A DNA stretch of 64,000 nucleotides from Brachyspira hampsonii. Its GTDB lineage: Bacteria; Spirochaetota; Brachyspiria; Brachyspirales; Brachyspiraceae. Below, piece after piece: positions 2,394 through 33,984 of the stretch. Each line of letters begins with the position of its first letter. The stretch's first letter is position 1. The position numbers and the translations under genes are program-made. The stretch lies in contig NZ_CP019914.1 of assembly GCF_002214805.1 (NCBI RefSeq), forward strand, positions 496,001 through 560,000. The letters run 5' to 3'. The notes beneath the pieces are model-generated. The model was given only the letters and a program-made list of their open reading frames with translations, ran no database searches and was not told the origin of the DNA.

Positions 2394-2422
2394 TTGACAT
2401 ATAATGAAAGTTATTGTATTAT
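2394..2422 (+). promoter_or_regulatory. near-consensus promoter for the leader and cNMP-binding regulator genes
   Basis: TTGACA (2394-2399) and TATTAT (2417-2422) are separated by exactly 17 bp, predicting a start near 2429. The transcript would carry a leader ORF and two microsatellites before the regulator at 2666. Confidence 0.75.
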
Positions 2423-2459
2423 GCATCATGATTTTATAATATCAAATTTGGAGTTAAAG

Positions 2460-2665
<206 letters not shown>

Positions 2666-2669
<4 letters not shown>

Positions 2670-32361: not shown

Positions 32362-33273
32362 TCACAACTTTTTGATTTTTTCTATAGTTAAGCCTGTTAC
32401 TTTACTTATAATATCAATATCTATATTTTCTTTTTTCATATTTTTATCTAATGAATATTTTTCTTGTTCTATACCTTGTTCTATACCCTCTTTTATACCT
32501 TCTTCCCTTCCTAATCTTCTCTCCTCATCAAGCATTATTTGATTACCGTATAGATATGCCTCTTTTTTCTCATATTCCATCATCATTAATTTACTTTTGA
32601 CAAAATTATTATATTTTTTCTGCACTTCTTCCATTATGGTTTTTTCTTTTACTATTTCAGACATAGACACCTCCAAATTTTTACTTGTAAATATTTTTAG
32701 CCAATAATTTAAATCTCTAGATAATGCATTTTTCTTAATTTTTTTTAACTCTATTATATGTATCTGCAAATGATCTGTTAATAACTTTTTATTATTCATA
32801 TCATAAAGCATATAACATGAATGTATATTCTTTGTTTTATCCAAATTGAAATTTAATAGATTGATACTTATTACAGGAGTAAGTACATCGTATCTTTCAC
32901 CATGCTTTAGTAATTTACTATAATTAGCAGCCCAATAATAAAGTATGCGTTCTGGAAATCTAGAATTGCCTTGTAATTGTATTTCTATAATAACAACTGA
33001 ACCGTTTTGAGTAAGGCATTTTACATCGAGGCATCTGCGACATCTGTCCACCTTGCGTGCCACCTTCGGTGCTATTGTTTCCTTTAGATTCCTATTTTTC
33101 TTTAGATTGAAATGGGTAAGAATTTCAACAGAACGAAAAGTTTTCATATTAGCATTAATCATTATAGAATTAATAAAATCCAAAAGTATGGACTCGCTGC
33201 TGCCTTTATCAGTAAAATAATCATTTAAAGGATTAAAATATTTTATTTGTTTAATATTTGATTTATTTCTCAT
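32362..33273 (-). CDS. Rpn-family recombination-promoting nuclease (PD-(D/E)XK)
   Basis: Rpn proteins are metal-dependent DNA nucleases that promote RecA-independent recombination, formerly called putative transposases (YhgA-like). The 303-residue protein shows the family pattern: NPLNDYF...LLDFINSIM, the catalytic Asp83 in LDVKC, Glu97/Gln99 in IEIQ, RFPERILYYWAANYSKLLKHGERY and TPVISINLLNF. It ends with a short acidic/basic repeat (EGIKEGIEQGIEQEK). Residues 68-82 are encoded by a GC-rich insert unlike the rest of the gene. A perfect consensus promoter (33280-33308) puts the predicted transcription start on the ATG, so the mRNA may be leaderless. It lies between an orphan immunity gene and the BspA paralogues. 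Confidence 0.85.
   Translation of the reverse strand: MRNKSNIKQIKYFNPLNDYFTDKGSSESILLDFINSIMINANMKTFRSVEILTHFNLKKNRNLKETIAPKVARKVDRCRRCLDVKCLTQNGSVVIIEIQLQGNSRFPERILYYWAANYSKLLKHGERYDVLTPVISINLLNFNLDKTKNIHSCYMLYDMNNKKLLTDHLQIHIIELKKIKKNALSRDLNYWLKIFTSKNLEVSMSEIVKEKTIMEEVQKKYNNFVKSKLMMMEYEKKEAYLYGNQIMLDEERRLGREEGIKEGIEQGIEQEKYSLDKNMKKENIDIDIISKVTGLTIEKIKKL
33028..33072 (-). other. 45-bp GC-rich in-frame insert in the Rpn gene
   Basis: Of these 45 bases 28 are G or C (62%), in a gene that is otherwise strongly AT-rich. The insert encodes exactly 15 codons, residues 68-82 (APKVARKVDRCRRCL), just before the catalytic LDVKC motif. It interrupts a region that is short in typical Rpn proteins. Its composition resembles the GC-rich intergenic islands at 1871 and 2014. 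Confidence 0.55.
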
Positions 33274-33330: not shown

Positions 33331-33678
33331 TTAATCAAGTTCAGCCCTAGAAAATAAATCTCTTATCAGTTTATCATCTTCGCATGCCTCTTTAAATAAT
33401 AAAGCAAATTTCTTTAATGCTTCAATATTGCTGCTGTAAGCACAGAACATACTTGATTCAGAATCAAAATCAATAATCCCTTTTAAATCAGGCACTCTTT
33501 CTTCTAAAAACACTATAGCCAAAGACTGCCAATCATACCCTCCTCCTTCAAAACCTTCATCTTCTCTTTCTTCAAATATTTCTACTTTATATTCTCCAAC
33601 ATTTAAACAAAGAGAAGCGGTATTTTCATGTTCTACAAAAAAGAATGGTTCTATTTGTTTTTCAAAATCATTTTTCAT
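33331..33678 (-). CDS. Imm51-like immunity protein (orphan)
   Basis: The 115-residue acidic cytoplasmic protein has the pattern I associate with Imm51: FEEREDEGFEGGGYDWQSLA, VFLEERVPDLKGIIDFD, SESSMFCAYSSNIEALKKFA and the end RDLFSRAELD. Imm51 proteins are described as immunity factors against toxins of polymorphic toxin systems. No toxin gene is recognised nearby, so it may protect against toxins from neighbouring cells. AAGGA precedes the ATG. A perfect promoter at 33956-33984 drives it through a leader of about 270 nt containing 17 heptamer repeats. The family call is from memory. Confidence 0.7.
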   Translation of the reverse strand: MKNDFEKQIEPFFFVEHENTASLCLNVGEYKVEIFEEREDEGFEGGGYDWQSLAIVFLEERVPDLKGIIDFDSESSMFCAYSSNIEALKKFALLFKEACEDDKLIRDLFSRAELD

Positions 33679-33797
33679 TTTTACTTCCTTTTAATTAATT
33701 TTTTTATACTAGTACTTTACTGCAATAATAAAAATGTTTAATCTTTTAATACTCTAAAATCATAAATAACAAAATATTAACAATAAATATTTTACTC

Positions 33798-33818
33798 CTA
33801 AACTTTAAACAAGTTTAG
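33798..33818 (-). other. hairpin at the end of the heptamer array in the imm51 leader
   Basis: CTAAACTT (33798-33805) and AAGTTTAG (33811-33818) form an 8-bp stem with a 5-nt loop. One arm is the first repeat unit and the other an inverted copy just outside the array. Any of the 17 units could pair with the outside arm in RNA. Confidence 0.6.
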
Positions 33819-33935
33819 AGTTTAGAGTTTAGAGTTTAGAGTTTAGAGTTTAGAGTTTAGAGTTTAGAGTTTAGAGTTTAGAGTTTAGAGTTTAGAGTTT
33901 AGAGTTTAGAGTTTAGAGTTTAGAGTTTAGAGTTT
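33812..33935 (-). repeat. heptanucleotide microsatellite (AGTTTAG) x 17 in the imm51 leader
   Basis: Seventeen perfect units (33812-33930) plus a partial AGTTT are visible. They lie between the promoter at 33956-33984 and the imm51 ATG at 33678, starting about 14 nt after the predicted transcription start. Read on the transcribed strand, every frame meets a stop every 21 nt, so the array is not coding. Confidence 0.95.
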
Positions 33936-33955
33936 CTCTTTAAGTATACTTTTAT

Positions 33956-33984
33956 ATTATATCATTAAAAATGTATTTTGTCAA
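33956..33984 (-). promoter_or_regulatory. consensus promoter for imm51
   Basis: On the minus strand TTGACA (33984-33979), 17 bp and TATAAT (33961-33956) are a perfect consensus match. Transcription would start near 33949 and enter the heptamer array almost at once. The promoter lies just beyond the 3' end of the TPR gene at 34000. Confidence 0.8.

Follow-up and report, generated by a model that had tools for sequence, protein, structure and literature searches.

Haemophilus, Neisseria and Moraxella are well-known examples of bacteria with contingency control by repeat tracts. In H. influenzae, heptamers lying downstream of the P2 promoter of hmw1A lower expression as their copies increase (PMC8262952, PMC10127715), and in M. 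catarrhalis an AGAT tract 132 bp upstream of uspA2 is associated, depending on its length, with mRNA differences of up to 3.37-fold (PMC7302503). Heptamers of the sequence TAACTGA, found in Beggiatoaceae, Cyanobacteria and Bacteroidetes, are intergenic, reach up to 43 copies and have been suggested to play a post-transcriptional role (PMC4679880). For Brachyspira, a gut spirochaete, the open-access literature that was searched held nothing on repeat phase variation beyond MLVA typing. The heptamer array described here comes from a window of 64,000 nucleotides (the whole stretch of DNA that was analysed) of Brachyspira hampsonii, whose 3.19-Mb genome is referred to below as G000. Judged by its sequence, the array is real, locked to its promoter and genus-wide, and it is probably a further 5'-UTR repeat tract of the uspA2/hmw1A type.

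Promoter, array and leader

The features of the locus, with positions in the window, are given below in the order of transcription, followed by the gene upstream.

33984-33956, minus: promoter TTGACA-AAATACATTTTTAATGA-TATAAT, spacer 17, extended -10 (TGA TATAAT); 12/12 match to the consensus, TG before the -10
33936-33955, minus: spacer from the -10 to the array, ATAAAAGTATACTTAAAGAG, 20 bp, without a start codon (from the sequence)
33812-33935, minus: heptamer array, transcribed unit AAACTCT, 17.7 copies, 124 bp; TRF gives period 7, 100% matches and 0 indels
33798-33818, minus: last unit and inverted partial copy, CTAAACTT-GTTTA-AAGTTTAG, with the anti-repeat GTTTAAAGTTTA (from the sequence); RNA pairing with array units predicted
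33679-33811, minus: remaining 5' leader; no promoter-like site was found on the minus strand between array and imm51, and no intrinsic terminator or attenuator in the leader
33684-33691, minus: ribosome binding site AAAGGAAG (from the sequence)
33331-33678, minus: imm51, 115 aa; Pfam Imm51 (PF15595), E=6.8e-36, 122.7 bits against a cut-off of 29.8
32362-33273, minus: rpn-like gene (PD-(D/E)XK nuclease family transposase), 303 aa; PF12784, E=1.8e-34, and TIGR01784
34000-35343, minus: upstream TPR gene, the context of the cassette in G000 and G023; distinct from the one found downstream of imm51 in relatives

The perfect TTGACA-17-TATAAT promoter that the first-pass annotation had placed at 33956-33984 is borne out, with 12/12 matches on the minus strand. 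Promoters of this quality are not rare in G000 (27% GC), since 36 were found in the 1.254 Mb of it that was sampled; the array promoter is the sole one among them with both a spacer of 17 and TGn. With 20 bp separating the -10 from the first repeat and a start 6-7 bp past the -10, transcription is predicted to begin near 33949, thus about 14 nt before the array, in agreement with the earlier estimate.

In the predicted transcript the array is a pure tandem tract of a short unit between promoter and start codon. The 17 units first counted are 17.7 pure copies by TRF; the array itself stood, but the unit given for it, AGTTTAG, had to be corrected for strand, because promoter, array and gene all lie on the minus strand and the transcribed unit is therefore AAACTCT. 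This is the single (AAACTCT)n array in the whole 3.19-Mb genome: three tandem units occur at this locus alone, and even the two-unit motif has no second occurrence in the 1.25 Mb of G000 sampled. The inverted copy of the unit was likewise confirmed (CTAAACTT, 33798-33805), and GTTTAAAG or a near variant lies 3' of the array in relatives.

The gene beyond the leader is Imm51-like, as had been proposed, and scores above the curated cut-off for PF15595; the gap of 134 bp given for it measures 133 bp from the array end (33812) to the ATG (33678). In most relatives the predicted transcript carries imm51, sometimes an rpn-like gene, and a TPR gene (~486 aa). In G000 this TPR gene is found ~35 kb off, in the same orientation as imm51 and preceded by another, partial rpn-like copy. 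Since the rpn-like gene next to imm51 has its own 12/12 promoter (33308-33280), the array may govern imm51 only in G000. The two rpn-like copies (window 32362-33273 and G000:C1:491500-496500, L242) flank ~35 kb with many DUF285 repeat genes and separate imm51 from its TPR gene, which may reflect an insertion or duplication at rpn. A cognate toxin gene was also sought beside imm51, and no toxin domain was found among the neighbours scanned; around the cassette these were TPR, rpn-like, DUF285, ankyrin-like and methylase genes, and the adjoining cognate toxin of a polymorphic-toxin immunity pair was not among them.

Distribution and turnover within Brachyspira

Relatives, whether found by imm51 or by DNA, were Brachyspira. 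A survey of 26 Brachyspira species genomes, one per species, revealed the promoter followed by an AAACTCT array in ten (G000, G023, G017, G013, G019, G002, G018, G005, G022 and G011), with two such loci in G002 (G002a and G002b). An eleventh genome, G024, holds the array end alone, beside an assembly gap, and in a twelfth, B. alvinipulli ATCC 51933 (G016), a different heptamer is expanded at the same position, which brings any form of the array to 12 of the 26 genomes. The gene ahead of the cassette varies by species: it can be a TPR gene, an ankyrin-like gene, an rpn-like gene or one for a DNA methylase. In the ten arrays of nine genomes that were measured, the promoter hexamers are kept and the distance from the -10 to the array is 18-20 bp. 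Complete arrays have 16.7 copies in G023, 17.7 in G000, 18.9 in G017, 19.0 in G013, 21.0 in G019, and 9.7 and 13.3 in G002; the remaining arrays run off contig ends, and short-read assemblies may have collapsed some.

Across ~1.4 kb of AAACTCT arrays there are zero interruptions. The leader 3' of the array differs at 16 of 120 nt (13%) between G000 and G023 and at 44 of 114 (39%) between G000 and G013; by simple arithmetic, the chance of 0 differences over 117 bp at 13% divergence is ~5e-8. That the arrays stay uninterrupted despite leader divergence of 13-39% argues that slippage renews the tract faster than point mutation, and we infer that the AAACTCT tract gains and loses units through replication slippage. 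The unit is the same in all array genomes except B. alvinipulli, where AAACTCT has shrunk to <2 units and TTTAAAG, the inverted repeat's right arm, has grown in its place to at least 13.6 copies (L034 and L019). The earlier picture of a transcribed, slippage-prone leader array before imm51 is thus supported at the sequence level, with the promoter kept alongside the array across the genus and a copy number that depends on the species.

The identity of the target is another matter. Behind kept arrays, imm51 is degraded in G019, absent at G002b, marred by a nonsense codon at G002a and frameshifted in a run of A in B. alvinipulli; in G004, G009 and G020 imm51 is intact and has no array. It follows that imm51 neither requires the array nor alone accounts for it. 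The suggestion that an immunity gene is the target is accordingly weakened, both by the frameshifted, nonsense-bearing, deleted or missing imm51 behind kept arrays in several species and by the TPR gene of the same operon. Of the 57 imm51 loci from outside Brachyspira, none had a repeat tract in the 600 bp upstream. In G003, with its decayed promoter, both array and imm51 are gone, and in G015 a deletion took the -10, the array and half of the leader ahead of the TPR gene. In G018 imm51 may lie in an assembly gap, because the contig with the TPR gene starts inside an rpn-like gene; a leader DNA search for genes behind the contig-end arrays of G018 and G011 gave no usable match. A phage origin was considered and rejected: five IMG/VR contigs contain AAACTCT arrays, but in an unrelated context.

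How tract length might act

The best explanation, to which we give about an even chance, is that the array is an untranslated leader repeat that tunes the mRNA of an imm51-(rpn)-TPR operon in a graded manner, as appears to be the case at uspA2 and hmw1A. A strong promoter would transcribe an untranslatable (AAACTCT)n, fixed 18-20 bp past the -10 in the 5' leader of the operon, and replication slippage would change its number of units. Tract length would in turn set the amount of operon mRNA by degrees, through leader length and mRNA decay or through the yield of downstream transcript; initiation, a folded switch and a frame switch would not be the route by which it acts. The constant spacing from the -10, the purity of the units and their replacement in B. 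alvinipulli are consistent with graded tuning, as are the loss of the array with the promoter (G003 and G015), the lack of an open frame and the 0 of 57 tracts outside the genus. Counting against it are the arrays before a broken or absent imm51 (G019, G002 and G016), the intact imm51 genes without an array, the rpn-like gene's own promoter and a predicted structure that is constant above ~6 copies. If true, the imm51 array would be an example of a contingency locus that is non-translated, graded and conserved across species. Because the promoter distance is fixed and B. alvinipulli offers a natural replacement of the unit, the way in which 5'-UTR tract length affects mRNA can be tested directly at this locus.

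Neutral slippage is a serious rival to graded tuning, although on balance we consider it the less likely of the two. Here, an old inverted repeat (TAAAC...GTTTA) by a strong promoter would form a slippage hot spot without any effect on expression, and the array would simply be carried with its promoter. Such a passenger could persist while imm51 decays and be missing where imm51 is intact (G004, G009 and G020), and the expansion of the other arm of the inverted repeat in B. alvinipulli is what would be expected of a local mutational hot spot; long repeats are, moreover, common in the Brachyspira genomes sampled. Less easily accommodated are a -10 distance that is constant in otherwise diverged promoters, a unit that is unchanged except in B. 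alvinipulli though leaders differ by up to 39%, and the loss of the array whenever promoter loss was seen. Tracts near genes with little or no shown effect, a point against graded tuning, have been described for hyp and gor of M. catarrhalis (PMC7302503).

Alternatively, each unit could be the site of a protein that recognises DNA or RNA (of the cold-shock or S1-like type, or a roadblock repressor), with the number of copies setting the bound dose. This would suit a unit kept across deeply diverged leaders and positioned directly past the start site, and heptamer-periodic RNA binding by Csp has been discussed for the intergenic TAACTGA repeats (PMC4679880). We nevertheless judge repeated binding sites improbable, as the unit differs in B. 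alvinipulli and there is no sign of a regulon, three tandem units being absent elsewhere in G000. Little weight can likewise be given to the version in which a dedicated nucleic-acid-binding protein reads the genus-wide, promoter-locked array as a dose, so that slippage would serve as a graded heritable dial on the immunity/TPR operon and not as an on/off frame switch.

A structural RNA switch, in which the anti-repeat GTTTAAAGTTTA pairs with a chosen register of the array and copy number sets the fold, is very unlikely. The anti-repeat does lie behind the array in relatives and pairing is predicted, but the predicted leader energy and the accessibility of the ribosome site are flat from ~6 to 30 copies and the leader is without a terminator. 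A fold that changes with copy number was rejected on account of this plateau, and a conserved leader hairpin because the predicted shapes differ between species; the earlier proposal that copy number tunes leader structure is weakened on both counts. A second proposal, that copy number tunes initial transcription, fares no better: once three copies are present, further units leave the stretch between the promoter and ~+35 unchanged, so that initiation and early elongation cannot read it. The structural plateau and a start-site sequence independent of copy number thus make two of the three mechanisms proposed earlier unlikely. With initiation and folding disfavoured, what is left is an effect of leader length on decay or yield, repeated protein binding, or no effect. 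Finally, a translational frame switch has next to no chance and is refuted by the sequence, for although G000 is rich in ATG-adjacent tracts with units of 4-7 bp, TAA occurs in every frame of this array, neither strand has an open frame through it and no start codon precedes it in the predicted transcript.

Other tracts in the genus and known systems

In the DNA sampled for tracts (1.254 Mb of G000 and 0.4 Mb of G017, B. murdochii), many long pure tracts with units of 4, 5 and 7 bp are found. Of 17 long arrays checked, the imm51 array alone has no open frame on either strand. In each of the other 16 a frame runs through the tract, often with an ATG a few bases before it, and in several cases this frame then goes on either to a stop or into a gene. 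For instance, at window 2394-2669 a promoter (TTGACA-17-TATTAT) and an ATG are directly followed by 11.9 copies of GTTATCC and 12.8 of TATC, and the TGA of the short frame overlaps the ATG (2666) of a cyclic-nucleotide-binding gene. Copy number would consequently set coupling or fusion, and the site is likely a translational contingency locus. At G000:C1:400486-400622 (L083 486-622), a perfect promoter and an ATG precede 19.6 copies of CAAGACA; the ATG frame stops just past the array and another frame continues into a cyclic-nucleotide-binding domain, so that the gene, related to the one at window 2666, is apparently switched off. At L108 (9204-12365), an Eco57I-type restriction-modification gene has 14 copies of AGCAC seven bases past its ATG and stays in frame over a further 1021 codons, making it a probable phase-variable restriction enzyme.

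Further tracts lie in other settings. L079 (1694-10431) holds three arrays of one pentamer (rotations of ACCAG), within or at the ends of genes, in a surface-sugar-like region (CMP-sugar-synthetase-like by eye) that also has 14.8 copies of ACAAC after an ATG. In G017, 34.8 copies of AAAC begin three bases past an ATG (L214 12965-13103), where the ATG frame has 21 codons and another frame 512, which can be read as a contingency locus in its off state. Pure heptamer arrays lie shortly behind promoters or start codons at L191 (7952-8152), L207 (13274-13371) and L211 (13355-13448), the first being two arrays with the register shifted between them, and in G011 11 copies of GAAATCA at a contig end (L033 1-77) lie ~100 bp upstream of a glycosyltransferase-like gene. 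The sampled Brachyspira genomes thus contain many clear contingency-locus candidates, and a genus-wide census of heptamer contingency loci seems worthwhile. The ATG-adjacent tracts resemble the imm51 array in that they include pure heptamers behind strong promoters; they lie in an open frame, as frame switches do, whereas the imm51 array cannot be translated.

Among the TAACTGA family, the likeness is that of an intergenic heptamer containing stop codons (PMC4679880). Those repeats are dispersed over many genes and in Beggiatoaceae mostly abut start codons, with two to six copies; AAACTCT, by contrast, is confined to a single promoter-bound locus. The uspA2 tract and the imm51 array are both untranslated and lie at nearly the same distance upstream of their gene (~132 bp and 133 bp). 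However, uspA2 has a tetramer ahead of a surface protein gene and a measured, graded effect of length on mRNA, while the Brachyspira tract is a heptamer with an effect that is inferred. In hmw1A and hmw2A of non-typeable H. influenzae, a 7-bp unit (ATCTTTC) also lies directly behind a promoter and within the 5' UTR, and the 14-24 copies of reporter and recombinant work are similar to the numbers in Brachyspira; there, transcript falls as copies are added in hmw (PMC8262952, PMC10127715). In hmw, however, the tract extends over both the P2 -10 and the -35 of another promoter, P1; the Brachyspira array begins 18-20 bp past the -10 (20 bp in G000), with no other promoter found between array and gene. 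The units differ as well (ATCTTTC and AAACTCT), as do the genes served, an adhesin in the one case and an immunity-like gene in the other, and the effect of copy number, shown for hmw, is predicted here.
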